In this document: positions 4,745 to 56,510 of the stretch, one piece after another
Layout of the letters: the number at the start of each line of letters is the position of its first letter
Numbering within the stretch: position 1 is the first letter of the stretch
NCBI GenBank assembly: GCA_963678705.1
Contig: OY783207.1
Coordinates: 930,001-994,000 of the forward strand
Reading direction: 5' to 3'
DNA from: Panorpa germanica
Lineage: Eukaryota; Arthropoda; Insecta; Mecoptera; Panorpidae
Length of the DNA: 64,000 bases
The notes under the pieces: model-generated
The model's database searches: none
What the model was told of the DNA's origin: nothing
What the model saw: the letters and a program-made list of their open reading frames with translations, nothing else
Position numbers and translations under genes: made by a program

Positions 4745-5905
4745 CACATATAATTTATATCTCTGCTTTCCTTTTCTCTGGGAGATAGAAAGGAGAAACA
4801 AAAAGAAGAAAGGAATACTTTGAAAGTAACAGAATGGTGAAAGAAGAGGCAGAGATAAGAAGAGACGAAACCGCACGTGTGGAAGAGGGGCTAAGGAGGA
4901 GAGGCAGAGAAATATAGCAGCAGGAAAGAATGGAAGAAATGTATAATAGCAAATATAATGAAAGATACAAGAGGATTTAGGAGAGAGATACGAGAAAAAG
5001 AGACAAGAAGAGTAGCAAAATTTAGATTTGGAAACGAAGAGAAATGCAGCAGATACTGGATGCTGGAGAGAGATAGAAATGCTGAAGCACATCAGGAAAA
5101 AAAATTGTGCAGCTATTGAAAGGAGGCATTGAAAGGAAGAGATGGATGGTGGAGATAGAGAGAAAGTACTAAAAGAGGCAGTGAAGGGAAACAGGAGAAA
5201 GGAAGAAGTAGTGAGGAAACAGTTAAACTTCAGTCCAGAAAAATAGAGGATTTTTCGGAAAGGAGAAAAGGACAAGAGGTGGATGACGGAGATAGAGACA
5301 ATAATAAAATAGTAAAGGAAGAGAGTCAAGAAGAAATAGTAAAGTAAGAGAGTCAAGAGGAAATAGTAAAGATAGAGCGTCTATGCCTGTAATAGACATA
5401 AGTGGAGAAGTGAAAACGAAGACAGAAGGCAGGAAGGATAGTGAAAAGATAATAGAGGGTTTGTCGAGAGGAGACAAGGAAGGCAAGAGGTGATAAATGA
5501 AGATACAGGCAATAAGGAAGGAGAAGCAGGAAACGGTGTGAATAAAGGAGGAGTAGGGGACAGGAAAAGAGAGGATCAAGAAAAGAAGAAACAGAGAGTA
5601 CTATTCGAAGTAGTAATAGTCTAGAATAGTTTAAGTTTAGTTTTTAACTTTGAATTTATATGAAATGCATGGTGGAGATAGAGAGAAAGAGCGAGGAAAG
5701 AAAAGGAATGGCAGAGTAGAAACAAGAGAAAGAGTATCAGGACGAAACAAGCAGTAGGGATTTAAGTTTATTTGTTTTATTTTTATATATTTTTTAGCAG
5801 GAGTGAGAATGGGTAGATAGAATAAGGATTACAAATAAAATGTAATCAAGCACAAGGCGGCAGAATGTAGTGCCTAATGGCAAAAACATTAAAATATAAT
5901 AATAA
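4745..5905 (+). mobile_element. R1-clade-like LINE, subfamily 2, 5'-truncated, interrupted by a second LINE
   Basis: This is the tail of ORF2 and the 3' UTR of a non-LTR retrotransposon. Bases 4830-5166 resemble the ORF2 end seen intact at 33396-33794, with many lesions. The remainder of the UTR (5690-5905) ends in GCACAAGGCGGCAGAATG, GTGCCTAATGGCAAAAAC and a short A-rich tail, a tail shared only with 24838-25345. The 5' limit is approximate. It is split by 5167-5668. Confidence 0.7.
5167..5668 (+). mobile_element. R1-clade-like LINE, subfamily 1, nested in the subfamily-2 copy
   Basis: A 502-bp segment matching subfamily 1 (compare 9168-9657) is flanked by a perfect 21-bp direct repeat, ATGGTGGAGATAGAGAGAAAG without its last base, at 5146-5166 and 5669-5689. 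It is truncated at the 5' end. It also stops at GAAATGC, before the usual AAGCCGAAAGGCACAC tail, so its 3' end is short as well. Confidence 0.75.
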
Positions 5906-9029: not shown

Positions 9030-9735
9030 GCATATATTGGCCAGCTATTAAAGGGAGGCAGAGAAGGAAAGAGGTGGATGGCGGAAATAGAAAAAAGGAA
9101 AGAAAAAACCGGACAATAAATAAGCTCGTAGCTGGGTTGCATAGGGAACATGAAGAGAGAGGAAGTACTAAAAGAGGCAGTGAAGGGAAGCAGGAGAAAG
9201 AAAGAAGTAGCGAGGAAACAGTTAAACTTCAGTCCAGAAAAATAGAGGATTTGCGGAAAGGAGATAAGGATAAGAGGTGGATGACGGAGATAGAGACAAT
9301 AATAAAATAGTAAAGGAAGAGAGTCAAGAAGAAATAGTAAAGTAAGAGAGTCAAGAGGAAATAGTAAAGATAGAGCGTTTATGCCTGTAATAGACATAAG
9401 TGGAGAAGTGAAAACGAAAAGAGAAGGCAGGAAGGATAGTGAAAAGATAATAGAGGGTTTGTCGAGAGGAGACAAGGAAGGCAAGAGGTAGATACAGGCA
9501 ATAAGAAAGGAGAAGCAGGAAACGGTGTGAATAAAGGAGGAGTAGGGGACATGAAGAGAGAGGATCAAGAAAAGAAGAAACAGAGAGTACTATTCGAAGT
9601 AGTAATAGTCTAGAATAGTTTAAGTTTAGTTTTTAACTTTGAATTTATATGAAATACATTAAGAAATATAATAATGTAGATTGTAAAGCCGAAAGGCACA
9701 CAATTAATATTCGTATAATAAATAAAAAAAAAAAA
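9030..9735 (+). mobile_element. R1-clade-like LINE, subfamily 1, 5'-truncated
   Basis: It begins inside the last ORF2 codons (ATTGGCCAGCTATTAAA) and runs through the full 3' UTR to AAGCCGAAAGGCACACAATT and an A-rich tail. An 8-bp repeat TTCTATCA flanks it (9022-9029, 9736-9743), as expected for target-primed insertion. Confidence 0.8.
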
Positions 9736-11605: not shown

Positions 11606-12212
11606 TGTTTTGTGTCCTCATTTTTTAGTGATCGATTTTTCAATTGTTGATTGAAATTGATGTTAATAAATGTGTATTGGTGTGTCTATTTTATTAAATA
11701 TCTAAATGTTGACGGAGATAAAGCAATTAAACATTTGAATTGTAGTTTTAGCGCTAGAAATGGTCGGCCATATTTGTATGACGTAAAATGTATTTTAACG
11801 TCAGTTATTGGTTGATTAGTTTAGTGCTGTGGTAATATTTTATAGCTGTTGGTAGTCGAAATAATCAAGTCAAGTCAAAGAATAATAAGTTTTTATTTTA
11901 TTTAACCCTGCTGAGGCAGACATGATATTGAAATCTGATTGATCCTTGAAATAGCTGTAAATAATATTTGATATTTTGAAATATAAATACATATAGCAGA
12001 GATTTATAAAAGAGATAGTCACATGCATTTGGAATGTTGTACAACGTTGAATCCCTTTAATAATTAAAGAGAAAAATTTACTTTTTTAATTTGTAATATC
12101 TCCTGAAATATAATGAGTTATTAAAAAGTAATTGGGCATCTGAGGTTCTAGTAACCCACTTTATCAATATATAGTACAGTTTTATAGAAATTAAGACATA
12201 GGACACAAGCCC
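11606..12212 (+). mobile_element. M-family element, copy M1
   Basis: A full-length 607-bp copy. Its ends are TGTTTTGTGTCC (the GGGCTTGTGTCC end with substitutions) and GGACACAAGCCC, each next to AT. The body includes the GGTCGGCCATATTTGTATGA block shared by all seven copies. It has no coding capacity. Confidence 0.85.
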
Positions 12213-15635: not shown

Positions 15636-18600
15636 TCACTTCTTGTTTAACTTCTTCGATTTTTCTTCATCACATCTAGCTCGATATGTGCATTTTTTAG
15701 GGGCGTAACAGATGTGCCCAGGTTGTGGTTTAACCCCAAACATTTTTGCGGGGTTGTATATTGTGTTCGTATAAGGTTCAATATCTATTGGAAATGATAA
15801 ATCAATATCCTTAGTTATGTTCGAAAATCGATCCGCTACTTTGAATAACCTTGATTTGCACATTGGGGTATTAGTGTAATTTTCTCGAGTAGTTTGCGTT
15901 GGCTTGCTTCGTTGCAGGACAGTCTGTGTCAGGACGGAAGGCTTGCCGTAAGTGAGATAAGTCTGCGAGGAATGCGTCTTACATCGGACAACCTTAGACT
16001 GAAATATATAAAGAAATAATTGATGAGTTCACAGTCTGAAATTTTATTTCACCTATTTATCCTTCACCGTCTTCCATCGGGATCTAATTACCTTCATTCC
16101 CGGAATATCTCCCAAGTAAGTAACGGATTCCTAACTCATCTTTATAGTGTAACGTCAAAATCAAAAAAAACTGCTAATATTTCTGGGTGGTTGTGAATAA
16201 AGTTCTACCGGGTTTTGTTTCTAGCACATAGCGATTATGTTGTTAACATGTTCTCGGACTGGAGATGTTTGCAATTATTGATGTGATTTGTAATTATTGA
16301 TTATGTGTTTATAGTGGACATAACTTAGATTAAGTGTCTGTATGTGTGTGATAATTACAATAGTGTCAGATTCCAATTGAAAATACAGTTAGGAATTTAT
16401 TAGCGAATTACGCTATTAATTAAATGAATAGATTATTTCTTAATGAAATGTTAAACATGTGGGTACACTGTCTGTTCAAAAAATAAGGAGTTTTCATTTT
16501 TCTCAAAAAATATTTATGTATTCATCAATTTCTATTTTGTCCCCTTATCATTTTGATTTTTTATATTAACATCACTGTCCGTCACTGAATTAGTGTTCAT
16601 TGTGGTGGTCACTTGGGCCTCAGGCCCGAACATGTTTATTTGTACCCAATACCAAACAAATTTATTTAATACACTCTCTATTAATTAAAACTTATCAAAA
16701 AACTGAAAGAATAACAACTGAAACAAACAAAACTAAAAAATTTATTCCGAAAATAGATAATTTAATAAAACCTCTGTGCGTAAAAATACAGCTACTCACT
16801 AAGAGATCTGAAACTCGACTCCTCCCCCTCAGATATAATACATTTGTGCCACCGTTTTTTCCAATCCTCGAAGCAGTTCTGATATGCACTTTTTGGTATG
16901 CTCTTGAGCTCTCTCAGCGATTCGGTTTGTATCTCCTCAATCGTCTCAAAACGCCGTCCTTTCATGGGTCTCTTCAATTTTGGGAACAGGAAAAAGTCGC
17001 AAAGGGCCAAATCTGGTGAATACGGTGGCTGAGGCATGATTACGGTGTTGTTTTTGGCCGAAAAATTACGAACAAGCAATGACGAGTGAGCAGGTGCATT
17101 AACAAACTTCGCTGCCACACACTTCATGCCCAAAATTTCCGAAAAAATTGCATGGCATGAGCCAACCGATATGCCGACATCCTCAGCAACTTCTCTAATA
17201 GTGATTCGACGATTCTCCATAACAATTTTCTTCACTTCCTTAACATTTTCATCGGTTGTTGATGTGCGGGGGCGTCCAGGGCGAGCGTCGTCATTCACAT
17301 CTTCTAGACCTTCTGTGAAAAGCTTGTACCACTTGTAAACATTTTTTTTGGCTTAAAGTAGACTCACCGTATGCCACTTTGAACATTTCAAGTGTTTTGG
17401 AGCACTTGATTCCATTTTTCACACAAAATTTAATGCAAACTCTTTGATCTATGTTTTTTCGACAGCAGAAAATCGCCGAACGCGCAAAACACTTCTAACT
17501 TTTATGCCTCTCACAAACAAACTAAATGTGCTATATAGCTAAAACTGTAAACATATCTTCGAGACGAATTTACCAACATAACAAAATAAAAAAATCGATA
17601 ATCGAATGTACGTAGTCCGCGAAATTTTTGCCTCACCTTATTTTTTGAACAGATGGGTATGGGGCTCGTATACCAAGATGGGATGTGGTATACTAAATTA
17701 ATTATGTCTCGCTTGAATAATATAATATGTTAATTGTCCTTCCCCCTCAAATACATAACCCTGTCAGCTTGATACTTATATACTCCCGGATTAATACCCT
17801 GCAAACAATTTGGATTCGAAGCGGATTTTGGATATTCTAGACCTCCATATTATAAACAACAAAAAAAAAAAAAGTGTCTGTGTTTCGAAGGTATTTCAAG
17901 TCAAAAACGGATGTGAAAATTTCAGAAGCAAAAATAAATTACCCCACCTTATAAACTTAAGCTTTAAAATATGAAATTTCTATTCCTGAACGTACCCAAA
18001 TATATTTTCTACCTGTGGCTTAGAACGTGCTTCGAAAAATCTTACTCAAATTTAGCAGGCTTCACGGAATCACTAAAATGAATCTATTTACGAAAATATC
18101 TCACCAATTGCAGGGCATTCTTCTTCATTTCCCAAATGTTCCATTCATAATTGGCGACTATCTTGCTGGTGACTGGATGTATTTCGGTTTGCATATATTT
18201 ATCAGACTTTTGACAAGCATTAAACTTATCTCTGTACTTCTCACACTTATTCAAAGCAACTTTAACTAAATCGTTCACTTTATCTTCTATTCCCAAGAAG
18301 TATGGTAGTGCTGGTCTAGTGCGAATGGCTTCAAATATTCCACAGGAGTACCTAGAGAATAGTTTCTTTGTTAACAAGTTAATCACAATTAAGTATATTA
18401 AATAGAAATTATATATTTACTGCAGTCCTTGTTCTGTTATTAGTTTTAAGGATTCAAGTCCTGCTGCTGCACATATCTTATCAATTCCATGCTTATGCTT
18501 ACACTTGTCAGGCGGAAAACGGAGGCCACACAATCTTAAGACTTCCCAAGGACATAGGCTGGTATACTAAATATTAGAACACGTAATGAACATGATTCTA

Positions 18601-21438
18601 TACCTATAAAGTACTTGTCTTGCGCGTGACGTCAACGTTTAATTATTCGTTATTAGACGTCCCTTTAATTATTAAAGGGATTCAACGCTGTACATAATCC
18701 AAGTGCATGTGACATCACAATCCTTGTGTAAGGTTACCAACCTTACAGCTCATAAATCTCTGCTATATGTATTTATATATTATAATATCAAAGATTATTT
18801 ACAGCTATTTCAAGGAACAATAAAATTCCAATATTATGTTTGCCTTGGCAGGGTTAACTAAAATAAAAACTCATTATTCTTTGACTTGACTTGATTATTT
18901 CGACTACCAACAGCTACAGAACATTATCACAGCACTGACCTACTCAACAAATAACTGACGTTAAAATGCATTTCACGTCATACAAATATGGCCGACCATT
19001 TCTAGCGCTAAAACTACAATTCAAACTTTTAATTGCTATATCTCCGTCAATATTTAGATATTTAATAAAATAGACACGCCAATACACATTTATTAACATC
19101 AATTTCAATCAATCGACCACTAAAAAATGAGGACCCAAGCCCATTAGTAATTCAATAAGTATTCACCTTAATTGGACATGAAGCTGGTCCAAAAAGTTTG
19201 TTGCAGATGCATGTCTTTATTTCATCTCGTTGCATCATATTAACTATTAGCTCAGCTTTGTTAATTCTTTCCAATTGACTTTGAATAGTTCCTTTATCTA
19301 ATTCACCCATTTCGAAGCCAAGTAAACCAACAATAAACCAGAGCCCTTTTGAAAGTGCCTTTATTTCTGTAAGCAACAGCGATATATCTTGAAGCTGAAA
19401 CCATACTGTGCAGATTTCATGAAACAACGGCTGAAATAATTATGTTAAATTTATATGGCTATTTTTCAGAGACTTTGTTACGCTAAAGGATCTTTATTCA
19501 TACATACTTTGGAATAACACATACCAATACATTTAATAATTTAACGACCTCCTTGTCTTTCAATTCAGTCGAGAGTGCATCCACTCTTGTATTAAAATTT
19601 TGCACAAGGTGGTTCGTGTTTTCATAAATGCCATGAATATGTTTCGCCAAATCTTTCAGCAAGACCTGCAATAAAGTGTAACGATCTCCTTAAGTTTCAT
19701 AAGGCCTGTCTCAGTATGGGACCGTATTTAAGCGACGGCGTATTCGGACGTAAATCGGCGGATTGGATGAGCTACAAAGCAAACCGCCTATGTGTGTCAC
19801 AGATGTCTGTAGTCGTGTATTAGGGGGTGTATTGGAGTTCTTTAGCACTTATATAATTTATCATGAGAGCAAACTTTAACTTTAATTTTTATCGATACAC
19901 TAGTGGTATTAAAGGGACTTTAGCATTTATTATATATCTGAGTTCTGGTTGGCGTGAATTTAAATTTAGTTCTATCGTATTGGTATCGGTATCGGTGTCC
20001 ATGATTCACTGAAATACAAACATAAACTGCATGCAGAGCATACTCGTCACAAGCGATGTCGCCGATAGATTTCATTTGAACCGTATTGCAGCGTAACAAC
20101 AAGCGATCTTAGGTATCCCCTCCAGTCTGAGGCGGCTGTTTGCATTTACAAAGGTTCGGATAGGATATCGTTGTAGTAGTGGTAACGCTTGGATAAAATT
20201 CGCCTTTATACGGTTTTAATGTGCGAGGTAGTGCGCCCGTATTCGGACGGCTTTGTAGCTTGCAGTCTGAGAGCTCCAGAGAGATCTCATTACATTTACA
20301 TGGTTCGGATAGGTAAAGCGTAGTAGCCCGTATACGTCCGGCAGAAATTCGCTTAAAGACGGTGCCATACTGAGACAGGCCTAAAGCGTACTTTCACAAT
20401 TTTACAGAAATACTTGTTGGCCTTTACCACATACTGATTAAACAGAACATAGTTGTCTCTAATTTGCTCGATATCCTTCATGATGTATAATCCTCCAACT
20501 TTGTTCGAAGAATGTTGCCTATTCTGTTCTAGAAAGTCGAAATACTTTCCAACACCTGATGTGTAAATATTGCTACTGGTTTGGGCAAATAAGAAATTCA
20601 TATCGATTAAATTTTGCATTTGTTGAATTGTTTCGAATAATGTTCCCGCAAGATTTATAATGCTTGCTCCTGGAATTTTATCTTTTTTCCAATTATATAG
20701 TCGAATTCCTGCTACGTAAGACGCCCAATTGTTAAGAGCCTTTAAAAGATAACGATATTACTTATTAGTGGATTTAATGTGATAGGATAACGAAAAATGT
20801 TGTAATCACCATCAATCGGTGCTTCTTATGCAACGAGTAGAAGAATTCAATATCGTCGTCCTCACAGATGCTGTTGAACGCTGCCAAAGTTTCGTTGTAG
20901 ACATCGATATCCGTCGGTTGGCCTATTGCAATTTTAAGAATAATGTATACCAATATCTTTAGTCGTAATTTTTTAGAATCTTCGTCATTGTCGTCCTTCT
21001 CCGCCATCAGTATTTCATCAACTAACGGCTGGTAACTTTCCAATTCACTCCTCCTGTGAATTTCTATGCATTCATTGATATGCCGCCATTTTGATATGTA
21101 AAGCCATTGAATTTTAAGTGTTATTAGAGATGGCGTGTTTTGATCTGCAAGTTATACGACCATTATTGGTAATGAAATCATCTTAAAGGAAAAGGAAGGC
21201 ATCTTATTATAAACTTACTGGATAATTTCTTCACACATCCCTCTACAAATCTCTCCAAAATATGTATGTCAAATGGTCCCGTCAGAATAAAACCAAAATT
21301 AGGATCCAGTGAATACGAATTTACTAAATATGCAACAAAATCTTGCTCGACAGATATTCCCTTGACATTGCATTCCTTCATTATTTCGGCAACAATATTT
21401 TTGATAAGATTGTTGCCATCGAATGTTGTATCCTTCAT
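15636..21438 (-). CDS. CFAP206: Cilia- and flagella-associated protein 206 homologue, complete (8 exons, 687 aa)
   Basis: In known axonemes the family docks radial spoke RS2 and dynein c to doublet microtubules; in insects that means sperm tails and sensory cilia. Exons (minus strand) are 21438-21219, 21144-20810, 20739-20392, 19665-19525, 19430-19167, 18566-18421, 18351-18105 and 15998-15636. All splice sites are GT-AG and every phase joins, giving 688 codons including TGA. Motifs shared with vertebrate CFAP206 are recalled, not searched: an N-terminal LDPNFGF block, PTDI (150-153), GIRLYN (196-201), YEWNIWE (553-559) and a C-terminal QT-rich stretch. The start is the first in-frame ATG, in good context (AAAATGA). 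The vertebrate protein is about 620 aa. No membrane segment or signal peptide is visible. Introns 3, 5 and 7 contain transposons. Confidence 0.93.
16466..17657 (-). mobile_element. Mariner element, copy 1, in CFAP206 intron 7
   Basis: The inverted ends read GTCTGTTCAAAAAATAAGG at each side, with TA outside (16464-16465, 17658-17659). The transposase frame (17298-16792) keeps the N-terminal helix-turn-helix part (VNDDARPGRP family motif, here starting MNDDARPGRP) and the C-terminal YSPDLALCDFFLFPKLKRP. The segment between GMKCVAAKFV and NAPAHS is deleted, which removes the first catalytic Asp region and most of the core. About 272 bp of unrelated sequence (16552-16823) disrupts the end of the gene. 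The copy is dead. Confidence 0.9.
16552..16823. other. Foreign 272-bp insertion inside mariner copy 1
   Basis: Mariner copies 2 and 3 read straight through this point, with about 8 bases that are missing here. The insert has no inverted ends or duplication that I can see; it contains GGGCCTCAGGCCC and a long A-rich tract. Its origin is unknown. Confidence 0.6.
18661..19142 (-). mobile_element. M-family element, copy M2 (truncated), in CFAP206 intron 5
   Basis: The end GGACCCAAGCCC followed by AT is intact at 19142. The other end is missing beyond the CTTTAATTATTAAAGG palindrome. The intact end lies about 25 nt inside the intron from the exon 5 donor (exon ends at 19167). Confidence 0.85.
19703..20381. 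mobile_element. PIF/Harbinger-type MITE in CFAP206 intron 3
   Basis: A 679-bp element has long imperfect inverted ends starting GGCCTGTCTCAGTATGG and a 3-bp TAA duplication (19700-19702, 20382-20384), both typical of PIF/Harbinger. There is no transposase. The duplication begins at intron position +8 relative to the exon 3 donor (GTACGC), so the element sits almost against the splice site. A decayed relative lies at 25368-25578. Confidence 0.85.
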
Positions 21439-21734: not shown

Positions 21735-22355
21735 GGGCTTGTGTCCTATGTCGTAATTTCTACAAAAGTGTACTATATTTTGATAAAGTGGGTTACCAGA
21801 ACCTCAAATGTTCAATTATTTTTTAATAACTCCTTATATGGTAAGAGATATTAACAAATAAAAGTCATTTTGTCTCTTTAATTATTAAAGGGATTCAACG
21901 TTGCACACATTCCAAGTGCATGTGACATCACAATCCTTGTGTAAGGTTACCAACCTTACAGCTCATAAATCTCTGCTACATGTATTTATATATCAAATAT
22001 TATTTACACCTATTTCAAGGAACAATCAAATTTCAATATTATGTCTGCCTTAGCAGGGTTAAATAAAATAAAAACTTATTATTCTTTGACTTGACTTGAT
22101 TATTTGACTACCAACAGCTACAGAACATTACCACAGCACTGACCTACTCAACAAATAACTGACGCTAAAATGCATTTCACGTCATACAAATATGGCCGAC
22201 CATTTCTAGCGCTAAAACTACAATTCGAACTTTTAATTGCTATATCTCCGTCAATATTTAGATATTTAATAAAATAGACACGCCAACACATTTATTAACA
22301 TCAATTTCAATCAACAATTGAAAAATCAACCACTAAAAAATGAGGACACAAGCCC
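21735..22355 (-). mobile_element. M-family element, copy M3 (full length)
   Basis: A 621-bp copy with both ends intact (GGGCTTGTGTCCTATG and GAGGACACAAGCCC), each bordered by AT (21733-21734, 22356-22357). It carries the TGTAAGGTTGGTAACCTTACA hairpin (9-bp stem, 3-nt loop) and the CTTTAATTATTAAAG palindrome. This is the best reference copy of the family. Confidence 0.9.
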
Positions 22356-22498
22356 ATTAAGCTATAAGCACAAAACTTAAAGTTTTGTATTACGTACTTA
22401 ACATAATATTTGTTACGTAACGTTACGTTTTATTATTTACCGAAAATACATTCTTCTTATTTTAAATTGTACGTTAATTTTCCTTTTGTTATTTTCAG

Positions 22499-26634: not shown

Positions 26635-27394
26635 GGAATGGAGGACGAAACACTGGAGTACATTAAGTTTGAGTGTAAGGAAAAAGTAGGGAGTGAGATG
26701 AATATTGGCCAGCTATTAAAGGGAGGCAGTGAAGGAAAGAAATGGATGGCGGAAATAGATAAAAGGAAAGAAAAAACAGAACAATAAATAAGCTCGTAGC
26801 TGGGTTGCATAAGGAACATGAAGATAGAGGAAGTACTAAAAGAAGCAGTGAAGGGAAGCAGGAGAAAGAAAGAAGTAGCGAGGAAACAGGTAAACTTCAG
26901 TCCAGAAAAATAGAGGATTTGCGGAAAGGAGATAAGGACAAGAGGTGGATGACGGAGATAGAGACAATAATAAAATAGTAAAGGAAGAGAGTCAAGAAGA
27001 AATAGTAAAGTAAGAGAGTCAAGAGGAAATAGTAAAGATAGAGCATGTAATAGACAGAAGTGGAGAAGTGAAAACGAAGAGAGAAGGGAAGAAGGATAGT
27101 GAAAAGATAATAGAGGGTTTGTCGAGAGGAGACAAGGAAGGCAAGAGGTGATAGATGAAGTTACAGGCAATAAGGAAGGAGAAGCAGGAAACGGTATGAA
27201 TAAAGGAGGAGTAGGGGATATGAAGAGAGAGGATCAAGAAAAGAAGAAACTGAAAGTTTTATTCGAAGTAGTAATAGTCTAGAAGAGTTTAAGTTTAGTT
27301 TTTAACTTTGAATTTATATGAAATGCATTAAGAAATTTAATAATGTAGATTGTAAAGCCGAAAGGCACACAATTAATATAATAAATAAATAAAT
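26635..27394 (+). mobile_element. R1-clade-like LINE, subfamily 1, 5'-truncated
   Basis: It starts within the ORF2 Cys/His tail (GGAATGGAGGACGAAACACT) and runs to the AAGCCGAAAGGCACAC tail. It is flanked by a perfect 14-bp duplication AGGTAAAAAATTGC (26621-26634, 27395-27408). Confidence 0.88.
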
Positions 27395-31510: not shown

Positions 31511-32406
31511 AAGGTTCAAAAAATAAGGTGAGGCAAAAATTTCGCGGGATTTTTTTATTTTGTTATGTTGGTACACTCGTCTCGAAGATATGTTCACAGT
31601 TAGCTATATAGCACATTTAGTTTGTTTGTGAGAGGCATAAAAGTTAGAAGTGTTTTGAATGTTCGGCGATTTTCTCCTGTCGAAAAACATGTATCAATAA
31701 GTTTGCAATAAATTTTGTGTGAAAAATGGAATCAAGTGCTCCAAAACACTTGAAATGTTGAAAGTGGCATACGGTGAGTCTACTTTAAGCCAAAATGTTT
31801 ACAAGTGGTACAAGCTTTTCACAGAAGGTCGAGAAGATGTGAATGACGACGCTCGCCCTGCACACCCCAGCACATCAACAACCGATGAAAATGGTGAGGA
31901 AGTGAAGAAAATTGTTATGGAGAATCGTCGAATCACTATTAGAGAAATTGCTGAAGATGTCGGCATATCTCGTTGGCTCATGCCATGCAATTTTTTCGGA
32001 AATTTTGGGCATGAAGCGTGTGGCAGCGAAGTTTGTTAATGCACCTGCTCACTCGTCATTGCTTGTTTGTAATTTTTTGGCCAAAAACAACACCGTAATC
32101 ATGCCTCAACCACCGTATTCACCAGATTTGGCCCCCTGCGACTTTTTCCTGTTCCCAAGATTGAAGAGACCCATGAAAGGACGGCGTTTTGAGACAATTG
32201 AGGAGATACAAACCGAATCGCTGAGAGAGCTCAAGAGCATACCAAAAAGTGCATATCAGAACTGCTTCGAGAATTGGAAAAAACGCTGGCACAAGTGTAT
32301 TATATCTGAGGGGGACTACTTTGAAGGGGACAAAATAGAAATTGATGAATAAATAAATATTTTTTGAGAAAAATGAAAATTCTTCTTATTTTTTTAACAG
32401 ACCTCG
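31511..32406 (+). mobile_element. Mariner element, copy 2
   Basis: The right end is complete (AACAGACCTCG, then TA at 32407-32408). The left end lacks its outer bases (starts about GGTTCAAAAAATAAGG). The transposase keeps YGESTLSQ and GREDVNDDARP at the N-terminus, and LAPCDFFLFPRLKRPMKGRR through GDYFEGDKIEIDE at the C-terminus. It shares the same internal deletion junction (AAKFV next to NAPAHS) as copy 1, plus a frame change near VGISRWL. It is non-functional. Confidence 0.9.
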
Positions 32407-34981: not shown

Positions 34982-35914
34982 GCAAGTGTGGAAGAGGAGC
35001 TAAGGAGAAGGGATAAGGAGATACAACAACAGGAAAGAATGGGAAAAATTGAAAAAAGCAACTACAACACAAGATATAAAAGGATTTGAGAAAGTAATAT
35101 ACCTCAGTACCTAATAGAAAAAGATATAAAACATATAAGAAGGACAGCAAGTTTAAGATTGGGAAATGAGGAAAAAGGAAACAGATACTGGGAAAGTAGT
35201 GAGGAAAGAATGTGTAGAGTGTGCGGAACGGAGGACGAAACACTGGAGCACATTAAGTTTCGATTGGAAGGAAAAAGTAGTGAGCGAAATGAATATTGGC
35301 CAGCTATTAAAGGGAGGCAGTGAAGGAAAGAGGTGGGTGGCGGAAATAGAAAAAAGGAAAGAAAAAACAGGACAATAAATAAGCTCGTAGCTGGGTTACA
35401 CAAGAAACATGAAGAGAGAGGAAGTACTAAAGGAGGCAGTGAAGGGAAGCAGGAGAAAGAAAGAAGTAGCGAGGAAACAGTTAAACTTCAGTCCAGAAAA
35501 ATAGAGGATTTGCGGAAAGGAGATAAGGACAAGAGGTGGATAACGGAGATAGAGACAATAATAAAATAGTAAAGGAAGAGAGTCAAGAAGAAATAGTAAA
35601 GTAAGAAAGTCAAGAGGAAATAGTAAAGATAGAGCGTTAATGCATGTAATAGACATAAGTGGAGAAGTGAAGACGAAGAGAGGAGGCAGGAAGGATAGTG
35701 AAAAGATAATGAATAAAGGAGGTGAATAAAGGAGGAGTAGGGGACAGGAAGAGAGAGGATCGAGAAAAGAAGAAACAGAAAGTACTATTCGAAGTAGTAA
35801 TAGTCTAGAATAGTTTAAGTTTAGTTTTAACTTTGAGTTTATATGAAATGCATTAGGAAATATAATAATGTAGATTGTAAAGCCGAAAGGCACACAATTA
35901 ATATAATAGATAAA
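34982..35914 (+). mobile_element. R1-clade-like LINE, subfamily 1, 5'-truncated
   Basis: A 933-bp copy is flanked by the perfect 15-bp duplication ATATGTACTCATCAC (34967-34981, 35915-35929). The ORF2 end is broken by a stop near TATAAAAGGATTTGA and a frame change near 35270. The UTR ends AAGCCGAAAGGCACAC. It lies only 674 bp downstream of the 33346-34291 insertion, in the same orientation. Confidence 0.9.
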
Positions 35915-35929
35915 ATATGTACTCATCAC

Positions 35930-36431
35930 TTTTGTTTTAATTTATCCTAAAAACTATGATCCCCACAAAATTTTGTGAAGAACCTTTTTGTCTCAAAAGA
36001 TTATCTTTGAATCTTTATCAAAACATTTGAACGTTATCAATTCTATTTTAGGAACAACTTTGAACTTAATAATTTTTCTTTAACTTTTGATTTTTGGTCT
36101 TTGTTTAGTAAAGGTAACTGGATTTCCTTTTTTATGTCAGAAAGGTACAAGCATTATACCATTCCTGAATCTTCATAACAGAAGCAAGTTTTTAAAGTAA
36201 TTTGCTCATTTCGTGTCTAGTTCTTGTTCTTCAGGGTAGGAAGGTAATGTTTTTGCTGAGGATTTAAGTCAAGATTAAACTAGAATCTTTTCGTATTTTA
36301 CATAAGTCATCGACAAAATAATGCTTGCGTCGTCTTAAGTAACTATTCACGATAGCGTAGAAATAAGAAAAACTAAAAGGAGAGCTATTCAAGAAAACGC
36401 TGGCCCTAGCAGTGTTAATAAATGGAGATCA
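35930..36431. other. Intergenic, nothing recognised
   Basis: No supportable feature. Confidence 0.5.
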
Positions 36432-37039
36432 TTGTTTAGTGGTCGATGTTTCAATTGTTGATTGAAATTGATGTTAATAAATGTGTATTGGCGTGTCTAT
36501 TTTATTAAATATCTAAATATTGACGGAGATATAGCAATTAAAAGTTTGAATTGCAGTTTTTGCGCTAGAAATGGTCGGCCATATTTGTATGACTTGAAAT
36601 GCATTTTAACATCAGTTATTTGTTAAGTAGGTCAGTGCTGTGGTAATTTTCTGTAGCTGTTGGTAGTCAAATAATCAAGTCAAATTAAAGAATAATAAGT
36701 TTTTATTTTATTTAACCCTGCTAAGGCAGACATAATATTGAAATTTGATTGTTTCTTGAAATAGCTGTAGATAATATTTGATATTTTGATATATAGCAGA
36801 GATTTATGATGTGTAAGGTTGGTAACCTTACACAAGGATTGTGATATCACATGCACTTGGAATGTGTACAACGTTGAATCCCTTTAATAATTAAAGGGAA
36901 AAAATGATTTTTTTAATTGTTAATATCTCCTAACATATAAGGAGTTATTAAAAAATAATTGGACATTTGTGCTTCTAGTAATCAACTTTATCAATATATA
37001 GTACACTTTTATAGAAATTAAGACATAGGACACAAGCCC
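36432..37039 (+). mobile_element. M-family element, copy M4 (left end missing)
   Basis: It matches M3 inverted from TTTAGTGGTCGAT to GGACACAAGCCC followed by AT. The outermost bases of the left end are replaced. Confidence 0.85.
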
Positions 37040-39059: not shown

Positions 39060-40075
39060 GCATATTTATATGGATTCACTATCCATATATATAGCCTATA
39101 TTTACTATAGATTAAAAGTGTATCCAAAATGTGTGCGAGAGAGAAAGGTATATGTTTCTATTTGTTCTCTGTACGCATGCGTCGAAAGTGACAGCTGTCT
39201 AGATATAATAAATATTCAATATCTAAAGGAATGGACTTGTGTCCTATGTCTTAATTTCTATAAAAGTGTACTATATATTGATAAAGTGGGTTACTAGAAC
39301 CTCAAATGTTCAATTATTTTTTAATAACTCCTTATATGTTAAGAGATATTAACAATTCAAAAAGTCATTTTGCCTCTTTAATTATTAAAGGGATTCAATG
39401 TTGTACACATTCCAAGTGCATGTGACATCAAAATCCTTGTGTAAGGTTACCAACCTTACAGATCATAAATCTCTGCTATATGTATTTAAATATCAAAATA
39501 TCAAATATCATTTACAGCTATTATTTCTGCCTTAGCAGGGTTAAATAAAAAAAAAACTTATTATTTTTTGACATGACTTGATTATTTCGACTACCAACAG
39601 CTACAAAATATTACCACAACACTGACCTACTCAACAAATAACTGACGTTAAAATGCATTTCACGTCATACAAATATGGCCGACCATTTTTAGCGCTAAAA
39701 CTTCAATTCAAACTTTTAATTGCTATATCTCTGTCAACATTTAGATATTTTATAAAATAGACACGCCAATACACATTTATTAACATCAATTTCAATCAAC
39801 AATTGAAAAATCCACCACTAAAAAATGAGAACACAAGCCCATTATATTTCTTTACTTGGTACAAAGCTCGTCTGTCGGTAAAACAGTGACCGTTCCGTGA
39901 AAGCATATACTCATGAACGCCATAGATGTCACTGAGGAGTGGGGACAGAACCCACGTTTTTATTTATATTTATATATAGTGTATTTATATTTATACATAT
40001 CTACATTATTCTACATCAATTAAATGTCATATTTATCAACTGTCACAAGATCTAAGCTCTATATATAGTGTTTTT
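39060..40075 (+). mobile_element. B-family element, copy with M5 inserted
   Basis: Its left part (TGTGTGCGAGAGAGAAAGGT, then GTGACAGCTGTCTAGATATA) and right part (GCTCGTCTGTCGGTAAAACAG, ACATCTACATTATTCTACATC) match 48537-49090 in order. Between them sits M5. The right long arm is lost. Ends are approximate. Confidence 0.75.
39233..39840 (-). mobile_element. M-family element, copy M5, nested in a B element
   Basis: A full-length 608-bp copy has ends GGACTTGTGTCC and ACACAAGCCC, each bordered by AT (39231-39232, 39841-39842). The interrupted B sequence reads CTAAAGGA-AT-TATATTTC after removal; two other B copies show the unoccupied site. Confidence 0.9.
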
Positions 40076-47538: not shown

Positions 47539-48475
47539 CGTAGTCTGTTCAAAAAATAAGGAGAATTTTCATTTTTCTCAAAAAAATATTTATTTATTCA
47601 TCAATTTCTATTTTGCCCCCTTCAAAGTAGTCCCCCTCAGATATAATGCACTTGTACCAGCGTTTTTTCCAATCCTCGAAGCAGTTCTGATATGCACTTT
47701 TTGGTATGCTCTGGAGCTCTCTCTGCGATTCGGTTTGTATCTCCTCAATCGTCTCAAAACGCCGTCCTTTCATAGGTCTCTTCAATCTTGGGAACAGAAA
47801 AAAGTCGCATGGGGGCAAATCTGGTGCATACGGTGGCTGAGGCATGATTACGGTATTGTTTTTAGCCAAAAAATTACGAACAAGCAATGACGAGTGAGCA
47901 GGTGCATTATCGTGATGCAAAAGCCACACGCTTCATGCCCAAAATTTCCAAAAAAATTGCATGGCATGAGCCAACCGATATGCCGACATCCTCAGCAACT
48001 TCTCTAATAGTGATTCGACGATTCTCCATAACAATTTTCTTCACTTCCTCAACATTTTCATCGGTTGTTGATGTGCTGGGGCGTCCAGGGCGAGCGTCGT
48101 CATTCACATCTTCTCGACCTTCTGTGAAAAGCTTGTACCACTTGTAAACATTTTTTTGGCTTAAAGTAGACTCACCGTATGCCACTTTCAACACTTTAAG
48201 TGTTTTGGAGCACTTGATTCCATTTTTCACACAAAATTTAATGCAAACTTTTTGATACATGTTTTTCGACAGTAGAAAATCGCCGAACCGCAAGACACTT
48301 CTAACTTTTGTGCCTCTCACAAACAAACTAAATGTGCTATATAGCTAAAACTGTGAACATATGTTTGAGACGAGTGTACCAACATAAGAAAATAAAAAAA
48401 TCGACAATCGAATGTACGTAGCCCGCGAAATTTGACCTTTTTAAAAAATTCACCTTATTTTTTGAACAGACCTCG
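47539..48475 (-). mobile_element. Mariner element, copy 3
   Basis: A 937-bp element has inverted ends GTCTGTTCAAAAAATAAGG inside outer bases CGTA/CGAG, with TA at 47537-47538 and 48476-48477. The N-terminal transposase frame runs 48326-47907 and the C-terminal one 47929-47594, out of frame with each other. It keeps LLHHDNAPAHS with its catalytic Asp, which copies 1 and 2 have lost. The deletion joins GMKRVA to WLLHHDN across a shared TGGC. It is non-functional. Confidence 0.92.
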
Positions 48476-49097: not shown

Positions 49098-50526
49098 TAA
49101 GCTAAATTGTATTGCACTGCCACTGCATTATACGTCTCAATCTGCATTTAATTCATGTCACACATAATCTAGTACAGCTAACGCTATAAGATGATGAAAC
49201 GAGAGAGGCAAGAGATGACAGTCGGATGACTGATGCTTCATTAAATAAATAATCTCCCTGTAGCGTCATTTGTTAACTGTTTTACTTATTATATCAAAAT
49301 ATTTTTCAATTAAATTTATATTCATACATTTTTTATGGGAAATATTTTAATAAAGATTTAAAATCTCCAGGAGTCGATGACATAAACAAGTTCTTCTTGA
49401 TAGGATGTTAAACCGTATAGAATAGTTTTGTGGTATGTCTATTTGCTGCGGTCAGGTCACGTTAGTGACAAACTTGGTCTCTCTGTGTTTTTCGATATTG
49501 TAACACTGATGCGCTTGACATATTGACTGATATGTAGTCCACTGTCTCTTTTCAGTATTTGTATAAGTAATCGGAAGGTTTATTCTCCTAAATACAGCAA
49601 GAATCATTTAAAAATATTAAACGGTGTAGCTTTAGCAGCTATTTCAAAAAGAAACTTACAGATGGCCCACTGCATAGTTTTAAAAATATTTCTTAAATTC
49701 CTTCTATAGACTATATTCACCTGATTTATAACTCGTTCCTCTTTCACCTGCAATTAATTACACATTCTGACTATTAACAACTAAAATTGACTACAGCATG
49801 TTTTAATTATGTAAATATTATGACACCAGGGTGAATGGACCGTAATTCCTCACAAATCTCGTTGCGGAGATCCACAGAGTTTTATAAATAATGCATAAAA
49901 TCTAATATTAAAATTAGCTAATATTAATAATTGGAATGCTATTAATATCTAAACGATTTATAATTAATAGCTGATATTAAAAATGTTGTGAAATCCGTGA
50001 GAAAACTTTGACATGAAATTGTCGAAGACGAAGTTCATACTGATGTCATCCTGTGGTGATGAAAGGTCACACGGGGTCATCCTCTGTGCAGATGCAAATG
50101 TAATTAGTTATAAATATATATGACTTATAATTAGGATAGTGAGTTATAATTAATTGATGGTGCACTAGACATCATTTAACGCCTTCTGACGTCATTTTGG
50201 TATAGTGTTTGAAAGCAACCATCGTGTTCTACCATTTTTCAAGCGCCGCCATGCAATTTTCCGTATTGATTCATAAGTTAGTTTTAATTTGACAACTATT
50301 TGTGTTATTTAAACATTCAGCGCTCAGGTCAAACGGATAAATTGATGAAATTATTAAATTGGTAAAAGTGAGTGAAGTAACAGACGTCGTAGGCGTGTGG
50401 GACTCTTTAACATCATTTGGTGACGTAATTCTTTGCTAGTCATGGAATAAATTTATTCCATCTGCGAGAATCGAACTTAGATATCAAGCAACATCAAGAG
50501 AACTTCAATTTATGCATTTCTATTGA
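49098..50526. other. Intergenic, nothing recognised
   Basis: No supportable feature. Confidence 0.5.
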
Positions 50527-50528
50527 AT

Positions 50529-51155
50529 GGGCTTGTGTCCTTATTTTTTAGTGATCGATTTTCCAATTGTTGATTGAAATTGATGTTAATAAATGTGAGA
50601 TGTGTGTGTGTTAGGCGACTATTTTATTAAAAATCTAAATATTGACGGAGATATAGTAATTAAAAATTTGAATTGTAGTTTATGCGCTAGAAATGGTCGG
50701 CCATATTTGTATGACGTGAAATGCATTTTAACGTCAGTTATTTGTTGAGTAGGTCAGTGCTGTGGTAATGTTTTGTAGCTGTTGGTAGTCGAAATAATCA
50801 AGTCAAGTCAAAGAATAATAAGTTTTTATTTTATTTAACCCTGCTAAGGCAGACATAATATTCGAATTTTATTGTTCCTTGAAATAGCTGTAAATAATAT
50901 TTGATATTTTGATATATAAATGCACATAGCAGAGATTTATGAGCTGTAAAGTTGGTAATCTTACACAAGGATTGAGATGTCACATGCAGTGGAATGTGGA
51001 ACGTTGAATTCCTTTAATAATTAAAGAGAAAAAATGACTTTTTTAATTGTTAATATCTCCTGAAATATAAGTAGTTAATAAAAAATAATTGGACATTTGA
51101 GGTTCTAGTAACCTACTTTATCAATATATAGTACACTTTATAGAAATTAAGACAT
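50529..51155 (+). mobile_element. M-family element, copy M6 (right end missing)
   Basis: The left end GGGCTTGTGTCC, with AT before it, is intact. The copy stops at AAGACAT, where other copies continue AGGACACAAGCCC. Confidence 0.85.
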
Positions 51156-53640: not shown

Positions 53641-54663
53641 GTGTGAGAAAAACGCGTTGAGAAATTTCAAAGAAAGACGAAACCAGACCAGAGAAGTGAA
53701 AATTTAAAACTTTATATCTCCGACAGTTTTACTCCAATTGATTTCAAATTTTCACACAATCAACTTAATATGTTGTACATTAATACTAAAACTTTAACAC
53801 CCCCTCCCCCTACCCGCCCTTCTTAAACGAGGTACTACAACTTATCTTCCTCAATTATTATAAATCTACGACCTTGTAGAGCAAATGTATTATCTAACTA
53901 ATATACAATATGCTTAATTATACTGTTCATTAGTAAGTAATATGTCTTCAAAATAATACAATGATATGAAATTAATCGTTTTCAAATTATGCCAAAATCA
54001 CCTGTGTTCAAATTCAAAACACCTTGCATAAATTCTATGTTTATTAAAAATCATTTATTTATTTAATTAAAATATAGGATATACCATTGACCTGCTCACA
54101 AATTACTTATTACGCAACACACCATATCATAGCATGTCCCCGAACATACACACGCACAATAAAAAGTAAAAGCAAGCAAGGTAACAAGTAGCACTTGTTA
54201 GAAAACGATGAGCATTACTTATTTGTACAATCAAATTAATTTGTTTTTAAAGTTGTAATGACAGCCGTTTGAGGTCACTAATGTCACGATAATCTAACGA
54301 TAAGTGTTGAGCGTCACGTTGAGACCCTTGTTGAGCCATGACAGGATAGAGTTTTAATGATACTAAGTAAACGGTGCAAAGGTCGCGGCTTCCAGGTGTC
54401 CGGAAGTCGTTACAGAGTGTTCGCCATTCTGCAATTCCACCAGACTTTGTTGCGCTTTAAGTATCGCATAGAATGAGCACTAATGAGCTTAAATAATAAC
54501 CCTGTCGTTGTTTTAATTTATTCTTAATTAATTTTATGATCGTGTAGTAAAATATTACTAGATTTAAATTTACTAGGGAAAAGAAATTCACGGCAAACGT
54601 ATGCCTATATTTATTTATACTCTATCAATATTTTAGCATTACTATCTTTCTTAATTTATCATT
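53641..54663. other. Intergenic, nothing recognised
   Basis: No supportable feature; 53640-53770 may be further repeat sequence of the preceding unit. Confidence 0.45.
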
Positions 54664-54990
54664 CCTATGTCTTAATTTCTATAAAAGTGAACTACATATT
54701 GATAAAGTGGGTTACTAGAACCTCAAATGTTCAATTATTTTTTAATAACTCCTTATATGTTAGGAGATATTAACAATTAAAAGTCATTTTAATTATTAAA
54801 GGGATTCAACGTTGTACACATTACAAATGCATGTTACATCGCAACCCCTGCCAACCTTACAGCTCATAATTCTCTGCTATATGTATTTATATATCAAAAT
54901 ATGAAATATAATTTACATCTATTTCAAGGATCAATAAAATTTCAATATTATGTCTGCCGTAACAGTGTTAAATAAAATAAAAACTTATTA

Positions 54991-55960
54991 TTGACAACGG
55001 ACCAGTAGGCGGGGCTTAAAAAACATGGCTACTGCTGGTGTGCAACCAAAGAATTAACCATAAGTTTACATTGAATTAGTGTCATGAATTTTAATTATTT
55101 ATGTTTTCTTTAAACCAACTTTTTCACTGGGTTGGATCAAATCCAGCTCAGAAAATTGTTAGAAATGCAGAAAAAATTCTGCAAGCTGGACATTTGATAA
55201 AATGTGGTAAAAATAATGATAATCCAAACAGTGACGTTGTGATACACAAGTATATGGTTTAGTATAAATTTTTTAACCGTACGGAAAAAATGCAAGTTAG
55301 ATAAATTGTAGAGAATTTAAATGCGCATCTAGCCGTACTATTTTAAAAATTTAAAAAAAATATTTTACCATAGTTTTTGTGTTTTTCTGTTTTTGACCTC
55401 ACGTTTTTTGACCATAACTAGGCGACAAAATCAAAAAGTCCACGTTGTTTGTTCTACAAGTTGTAAAACTTATTGTTTTAAACATATTTATACATTAGAA
55501 AAAAAAAACACTTTTCATATAATTTTATGAAAAAACGTGAAAAAACGTGGACCAACAAAAATTAATTTTCAACATTTACGAAACGTTTTTTCACGTTTTT
55601 TTCATAAAATTATATGAAAAGTGTTTTTTTTTTCTAATGTATAAATATGTTTAAAACAATAAGTTTTACAACTTGTAGAACAAACAACGTGGACTTTTTG
55701 ATTTTGTCGCCTAGTTATGGTCAAAAAACGTGAGGTCAAAAACAGAATAACACAAAAACTATGGTAAAATATTTTTTTTAAATTTTTAAAATAGTACGGG
55801 TAGATGCGCATTTAAATTCTCTACAATTTATCTAACTTGCATTTTTTCCGTACGGTTAAAAAATTTATACTAAACCAATCAAAATTGTGTATCAAGTGCA
55901 CACCAGAACTAGTACTTCTTTCGACCACCAGGCGTCGTGGCCAAAGTGGTCAGTTGTCAA
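54991..55960. mobile_element. Foldback element with two about 294-bp near-identical inverted arms
   Basis: A 970-bp insertion in M7. The outer ends are TTGACAAC / GTTGTCAA. Arms 55255-55548 and 55583-55877 differ by about two substitutions and one indel and are separated by a 34-nt spacer, so a transcript would fold into a long hairpin. The left side has about 200 bp, including a coding-like frame, that the right lacks. Comparison with other M copies shows no more than a TT duplication. The superfamily is unknown. Confidence 0.88.
55101..55262 (+). pseudogene. 53-codon coding-like fragment carried by the foldback element
   Basis: The ATG-initiated frame runs MFSLNQLFHWVGSNPAQK... to ...IHKYMV and ends at the arm boundary. 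The segment SNPAQKIVRNAEKILQAGH recalls, from memory only, the N-terminal part of insect transposon-associated proteins that have a SWIM zinc finger further on. If so, this is a gene fragment left in a deletion derivative; on its own it is too short for that domain. Confidence 0.35.
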
Positions 55961-56239
55961 TTCTCTGACTTGACTTGATTTTTTCGACTACCAACAGCTA
56001 CAAAACATTGCCACAGCACCGACCTAATCAACAAATAACTGACGTTAAAATGCATTTTACGTCATACAAATATGGCCGACTATTTCTAGTGCTAAAACTA
56101 CAATTCAAACTTTTAATTGCTATATCTCCGTCAACATTTAGATATTTAATAAAAAAGACACGCCAATACACATTTATTAACATCAATTTCAATCAACAAT
56201 TGAAAAATCGACAACTAAAAAATGAGGACACAATCCCAT

Positions 56240-56510
56240 TACAATTATAACTTCTTAATTCTAAAGAAATAATAAAAAAGTTGAGCAAGATGAATAGTGG
56301 AATACTAATCTGGCTTATCTAGTAGCTCTGAAAATGAATGGGCTGCCTATAATCAGTCGTTGGGGCAAATGAAGCATTCATAACTTGCGTTACAATTATT
56401 AGATTAGAAGACCAAATAAGTCCACAAGTTGTTGCAAACAGATATAATGGAATCTGTAACAAATTGACACTGTATACATTATAGTTTAAGACCAATTTCC
56501 ACTGGATAGA
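56240..56510. other. Intergenic, nothing recognised
   Basis: Its last part leads into the LINE target duplication at 56511. Confidence 0.45.

Follow-up and report, generated by a model that had tools for sequence, protein, structure and literature searches.

A young non-coding MITE with an internal palindrome in Panorpa germanica, very probably derived from an ISL2EU-type transposon of the same genome

A stretch of 64,000 nucleotides of the Panorpa germanica genome (hereafter, the window) carries two inverted arms of about 294 nt, 99% alike, with a 34-nt spacer between them. A sequence-only reading had taken the locus for an unclassified foldback element with ends that fit none of the common families. 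What kind of element is this, and why are its arms so similar? We conclude, with a probability of about 0.9, that it is a young non-coding MITE of approximately 100 copies that derives from an ISL2EU-type transposon of the same genome.

The whole non-autonomous element spans 970 bp of the + strand (54991-55960). Its edges, TTGACAAC from position 54991 and GTTGTCAA finishing at 55960, are common to many genomic copies, and the window also holds empty paralogs of the site. The element has a 14-bp terminal inverted repeat (TIR), a left end of 264 bp, two 294-bp arms that form an internal palindrome, and a right end of 83 bp. The left TIR, TTGACAACGGACCA, occupies 54991-55004 (+) and the right TIR, TTGACAACTGACCA on the - strand, 55947-55960, the right edge reading TGGTCAGTTGTCAA with its last base at 55960; the two ends pair at 13 of 14 positions. 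Some 40-50 bp inside each end lies one copy of a 16-nt subterminal inverted repeat, CTACTGCTGGTGTGCA at 55029-55044 (+) and its partner TGCACACCAGAACTAG at 55897-55912 (-), which pair at 14 of 16 positions and are a candidate transposase-binding site. The left end, E5 (54991-55242, +), corresponds to the 5' end of a coding parent (below) together with the beginning of exon 1 in its YqaJ-side gene. A remnant reading frame of 53 codons and a stop (55101-55262, +) aligns to the parent exon over its first 47 codons, and the remainder enters arm 1. The core inverted arms, 55255-55535 and 55597-55877, are 281 nt long and 99% complementary; a perfect 19-nt inner repeat extends them to 55255-55548 (arm 1, +, 294 nt) and 55583-55877 (arm 2, -, 295 nt), leaving the 34-nt spacer at 55549-55582. 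In the window copy, the arms match at 99% over 294 positions. The right end, E3 (55878-55960, +), comes largely from the coding parent.

The two facing arms were thus found where they had been described. They stop short of the ends of the element: the left and right ends lie outside the arms, and the real TIR is 14 bp. Foldback elements of the FB or Galileo type have long inverted arms that reach the element ends. The present element resembles them in its large inverted arms and differs in that these are internal, separated from the ends by 264 bp (left) and 83 bp (right), and in its AT target. "Foldback" therefore applies in a loose sense only, and long internal arms combined with a 14-bp TIR at the ends make the element a MITE rather than a classic foldback.

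The element has inserted into another repeat, six uninterrupted paralogs of which lie in the window (11610-12203, 18652-19146, 21744-22359, 36429-37030, 39242-39844, and 50522-51155). When its flanks were joined, the result corresponded to the unfilled site along all 160 bp of the probe in five paralogs and along 125 bp in the sixth, and filled and empty paralogs differed by no gain apart from the element itself. The host repeat, about 0.6 kb long, is dispersed through the 64 kb in seven copies of both orientations; six are 86%-89% identical to the seventh (around 54640-56250), which contains the element. The window holds other repeats as well. Units of 240-300 nt at 5252-5491, 9250-9489, 26910-27157, 35509-35748, and neighboring positions sit in strong GC and AT skew (4-6 kb and 34-36 kb). 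A 168-aa transposase frame at 16792-17298, which from its motif we take to be mariner-like, belongs to a repeat of which the window holds two or more further copies, 92%-97% alike; related stretches are found at 31661-32395 and 47551-48288.

At the window copy, the left flank is TA (54989-54990) and the right flank TT (55961-55962). To derive the target rule, we entered 48 loci, 44 of which had two readable ends; L004, L065, L088, and L100 were left out on account of changed tips or end type. In all 44 copies, A is the last base of the left flank and T the first base of the right flank. The flank pairs were TA/TA (23 copies), TA/TT (8), AA/TA (8), CA/TA (2), TA/TC (1), TA/TG (1), and AA/TT (1). 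The outer left base is therefore T in 33, A in 9, and C in 2 copies, and the outer right base A in 33, T in 9, and C and G in one each. Sites follow the pattern N|AT|N, in most copies T|AT|A. The duplication of TT suggested earlier for this copy is not the general rule: the A of its left flank and the first T of its right flank make up the AT target. Since the target is always AT, a duplication of AT and a clean insertion between A and T are formally identical; if AT is duplicated, the duplicates are 54990-54991 and 55960-55961. The element inserts at AT, with T|AT|A preferred.

The TA found on both sides of 23 of the 44 copies, together with the mariner-like frame in the window, could point to a MITE of the Tc1/mariner kind that duplicates TA at its target. 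However, 21 of the 44 copies are not TA/TA, even though near-full members of the family differ by only 0.94%, and the A at the left and T at the right form the sole invariant pair. An outer left T and an outer right A show no association in the 44 copies (Fisher p 0.24), so TA is a preference, not a duplication. The parent, moreover, encodes DDE_Tnp_4, THAP, and YqaJ domains. We rejected the TA duplication and regard a Tc1/mariner origin as extremely improbable.

The expectation that a mobile element should have other copies in the genome was borne out. A genome search with the whole element gave 163 candidates, 40 of which were scored, each near-full and 97%-100% identical. The exact TIR pattern matched 122 times in the forward and 108 times in the reverse orientation; the 230 exact TIR ends, against 8 matches (3 forward, 5 reverse) for the reversed TIR used as a control, indicate a family of about 100 copies. 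For divergence, we used 40 copies of 955-975 bp among 47 extracted elements. They differ pairwise by 0.94% on average and by 2.3% at most, and from their majority sequence by 0.53%. This set favors the best-scoring copies, and diversity across the family as a whole is probably a little higher. The low divergence among near-full copies shows the family to be young. In line with an insect source, the genome gave 97 matches to PBP_GOBP, a family of insect odorant-binding proteins, against none in 14 control genomes; Lipoprotein_11, with no match either here or in the controls, was uninformative.

The exact-TIR list also led to a coding parent, M111 (C6:17488164-17492258, 4,095 bp), in which the left end runs on into coding sequence. 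M111 shares with the MITE 252 bp of E5 at 98% identity and 71 bp of E3 at 94% (80 bp at 91% when the flank is included). The matches cover window positions 54989-55242 and 55885-55964 only; between 55242 and 55885, palindrome included, M111 gave no match to the element. It terminates in the MITE right end, differing slightly at the tip (CCCAA), and is itself flanked by ATA|...|TAC. The + strand of M111 carries an exon that begins within the MITE left-end sequence, and a YqaJ exonuclease domain (PF09588, 1.8e-13). The - strand encodes THAP (PF05485, 6.3e-5), HTH_Tnp_4 (PF13613, 1.9e-8), and DDE_Tnp_4 (PF13359, 6.5e-34) domains, the THAP domain on separate open stretches. A SWIM zinc finger was recognized in a sister copy, L104 (5.3e-6); the SWIM exon of M111 was not recognized by Pfam. 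M111 also carries, in its middle, an insertion of about 450 bp (L113, C6:17488765-17492264, about 1249-1700). The inserted sequence is a short abundant repeat, with an 8-bp overlap at the join and at least 37 further places at 94%-99% identity among 40 scored of 2394 candidates. Given this insertion and the unrecognized SWIM exon, M111 may not be functional.

A second parent copy lies on C7 at about 2027181-2031451. It matches M111 at 97% in two pieces, lacks the mid-element insertion, and has a transposase stretch of 406 aa without stops (C7:2029122-2030339) that is 96% identical to that of M111; the interval C7:2027051-2030249 is known from sequence matches alone. The right end of the C7 element is the M111 left end inverted (L117, 723 bp), and it carries the CTGCTGG subterminal motif of the young type. 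An E5-side 23-mer occurs at both 2027420 (+) and 2031190 (-), so E5 sequence is present at both ends of the C7 parent, at the left as judged by the 23-mer. The transposase has 51 matches in the genome, 49 besides those of the two parents. These 49 are 25%-42% identical, except for one 45-aa piece at 84% on C18; many lie on C5 and C1, others on C7 and elsewhere, several have uninterrupted frames, and they represent other families of the same transposase kind. A sequence search of solved structures with the transposase found no relative at E 0.01. E5 continues into coding sequence at seven places belonging to six elements (with up to 2 mismatches). Compared with about 120 E5 candidates at first look, this means that the MITE has far outgrown its parent.

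Taken side by side, MITE and parent show that the first ~252 bp and the last 76-80 bp of the coding parent were kept and that the coding middle is gone; in its place the MITE has the palindrome, whose two 294-bp arms enclose the 34-bp spacer. The DDE/THAP transposase encoded by the parent would recognize the 14-bp TIR and the subterminal CTGGTGTGCA repeat and would move the MITE in trans.

The ends, the AT target, and the coding parent together place the element with the ISL2EU group. In passages of Han 2015 (PMC4482050), ISL2EU elements are described as having an AT target duplication in the context A|AT|T, TIRs usually starting with GG, and an average length of ~4.8 kb; the PHIS (PIF/Harbinger-ISL2EU-Spy) groups are there defined by the duplication itself, A|AT|T being reported as a shared context. 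The YqaJ domain is tied to ISL2EU in portions of PMC4482050 and PMC9179366. Our family agrees with ISL2EU in its AT target (A left and T right in 44/44 copies, plus the six empty paralogs), in a parent that encodes DDE, HTH, and THAP domains, in a second gene with a YqaJ exonuclease domain, and in the length of the parent, ~4 kb compared with the published average. It differs in its context, for the most part T|AT|A rather than A|AT|T; in its TIR, which starts with TG (or TTG) instead of the usual GG (TGACAAC, or TGGGAAC at the right end of the parent); and in that the present copies are non-coding and carry an internal palindrome. With the AT rule and a partner that has both transposase and YqaJ domains in hand, we hold the assignment as an ISL2EU-derived MITE to be very probable. 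Like MITEs in general, which derive by internal deletion, the element is short, non-coding, bounded by TIRs, and present in many young copies that keep both ends of a coding parent; it is unlike them in its 0.62-kb palindrome, which neither parent copy shows.

Spy, of the same PHIS superfamily, was considered because the insertion can be read as having occurred between A and T without any duplication. Passages of PMC4482050 and PMC11304231, however, give Spy an AAA|TTT target and one reading frame. The sites here are mostly TA|TA and do not follow AAATTT, and the partner has the YqaJ domain tied to ISL2EU. A Spy-type element is thus highly improbable, and we retain the ISL2EU assignment. Among the titles and abstract openings listed in the literature searches, none reported this family or a palindrome-bearing ISL2EU MITE.

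Where, then, did the palindrome come from? It was found neither in M111 nor in the C7 parent as read or matched, and C7:2027181-2031451 contains no exact arm 29-mer. The left junction of the palindrome, GTTGTGA|TACACAAGTATAT, holds the reverse complement of ATATACTTGTGTA, a sequence present near the right end of both M111 and M104; the right-hand counterpart in the window copy is AAAATTGTGTA, where the match is partial. This motif suggests that the palindrome arose by inverted duplication of a piece of the 3' end. The other ~280 bp of each arm were found only beside these ends, in all 84 exact 29-mer matches on C1-C6 (181 genome-wide). We also considered that the arms are a separate element inserted into the MITE, and rejected this, as all 84 of the arm 29-mers on C1-C6 lie within 924 bp of an exact TIR; the search covered exact 29-mers at 84 of the 181 places, and a diverged source could escape it. 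Three copies, L038, L043, and L104/M104, are of an older subterminal type and have a shorter arm 1, and L104/M104 retains coding sequence beyond E5. The founder palindrome may have formed by inverted duplication of a segment beside the parent's 3' end, through gap repair or foldback synthesis.

Two explanations had been offered for the near-identity of the arms, a very recent insertion and ongoing homogenization. The divergence of the family agrees with the first. Comparison of the arms in the 40 copies spoke against the second. Within a copy, the arms differ by a mean of 2.45 substitutions (median 2, range 1-7). Between copies, the difference is 2.30 for arm 1 against arm 1, 2.58 for arm 2 against arm 2, and again 2.58 for arm 1 against arm 2 of another copy. 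Private changes affected a single arm 35 times and both arms of one copy once (L074), and at column 276 the two arms still differ by one base in 36 of 40 copies. Because the difference within copies equals that between copies and private changes fall in single arms, the arms age independently after insertion, and homogenization is ruled out as the main cause of their likeness. Arms do occasionally interact: the orientation of the spacer is flipped in three copies (L049, L112, and L119). Among 73 E5 places, the spacer was forward in 54, inverted in 2, and not recognizable in 17, a count that misses L119, whose inverted spacer is apparent in its sequence. Inverted spacers imply that arms sometimes pair or recombine, and the one private change shared by both arms of L074 counts toward gene conversion within a copy. 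Set against the equal differences within and between copies, the 35 one-arm changes, and the retained difference at column 276, we consider active gene conversion inside each copy very unlikely to be the reason that the arms are nearly identical. We infer that this likeness is the legacy of a young founder with fresh arms, inherited by its copies and not upheld in them.

The ends of the element have a history of their own. We examined 87 of 124 loci and three merged pieces and obtained 70 distinct E5 ends in which the motif is intact. An E3-type tip (TTGACAACTGACCACT) was present on 10 of these 70, one of them the right end of the C7 parent, and one copy, L100, has E3 at both ends. Ends have thus been swapped repeatedly in the family. 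Counted by eye, the TIRs match at 13/14 positions in the young type and at 11/14 in M111, and the subterminal repeats at 14/16 and 12/16, respectively; the more similar ends of the abundant young type may have aided its spread. The MITE palindrome, the C7 parent with E5 on either side, L100 with E3 on either side, and E3-type tips on E5 ends lead us to propose, tentatively and at somewhat short of even odds, that inverted swapping or duplication of ends has recurred in this ISL2EU lineage through hairpin or template-switch intermediates, and that its ~100 closely similar palindromes of 0.62 kb form a natural experiment on palindrome breakage in the germline, the truncated copies breaking near the center.

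To survey breakage, we used the exact TIR places listed for C1-C6, 100 of the 230 in the genome. They comprise 39 pairs, of which 30 span at least 940 bp and 9 are shorter, and 22 singles. The singles are 13 half copies, M111, and 8 copies with parts of both halves and an inexact other end. Since L106-L108 share one flank, the 13 half copies represent 11 independent ones, which stop at element positions 513, 545, 545, 551, 552, 558, 558, 558, 593, 596, and 597. The center of the palindrome is at 575.5, and 10 of the 11 stops fall within 31 bp of it. L122 (stop at 593) is less clear, having a further 70-bp piece of arm 1 at 80% identity beyond the stop, like deletions of the L095 type; without it, 9 of 10 stops are near the center. 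One half copy, L119, runs on into an inverted spacer. Two copies from another search, L009 and L013, stop at 600 and 595. Eight of the nine shorter pairs were examined (L095-L102). A deletion end lies within 40 bp of the center in six of them, L095, L096, L097, L098, L099, and L101; L095, L096, and L099 have a common junction and may represent one event. L100 joins at 608, and L102 (353/468) does not fit the pattern.

The distribution of stops agrees with breakage at the center of a hairpin or cruciform, and the palindrome would be unstable once inserted, since truncated copies end near its middle. The main rival to real breakage is that half copies are errors of assembly at a long palindrome, and long inverted repeats do trouble polymerases and assemblers. 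Most copies, however, were assembled through the palindrome, as the 30 of 39 end pairs of at least 940 bp on C1-C6 testify, and the half copies shown run into other sequence on the broken side. One half copy, furthermore, was recovered at three places with the same flank. We therefore judge assembly error to be unlikely, and favor breakage of the palindrome. The three places, L106, L107, and L108 (C3:24014899, 24021683, and 24036019), lie within 22 kb, where a local segmental duplication seems to have taken the broken element with it.

An RNA copy of the palindrome is predicted to fold almost fully, with 292 pairs in 623 nt and an energy of -441 kcal/mol, against a mean of -100 kcal/mol for 20 mononucleotide shuffles; by this measure, the palindrome is far above chance. 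The MITE retains the start codon of the parent and the first 47 codons, and these enter arm 1 directly, so a transcript begun at the retained 5' end would fold back onto its own sequence. The hairpin could on these grounds be a functional siRNA source, such a transcript supplying dsRNA as a candidate substrate for Dicer-2. Against this, the arms have no match in M111 or in C7 as read or matched. Given this lack of a match, any siRNAs from the arms should target MITE-bearing RNAs rather than the transposase gene, and we find a functional siRNA source a doubtful proposition, rather unlikely overall.

What had been an unclassified foldback now belongs to a named group and has a coding partner in the same genome, which makes its transposition directly testable. 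The T|AT|A context is unlike the published ISL2EU context, A|AT|T. The classification itself is ordinary; the breakage of the palindrome and the swapping of ends are the more interesting part. Should the breaks at the center prove real, this set of about 100 long palindromes, with a single recent origin, would provide a spectrum of palindrome breakage and repair in an animal germline.
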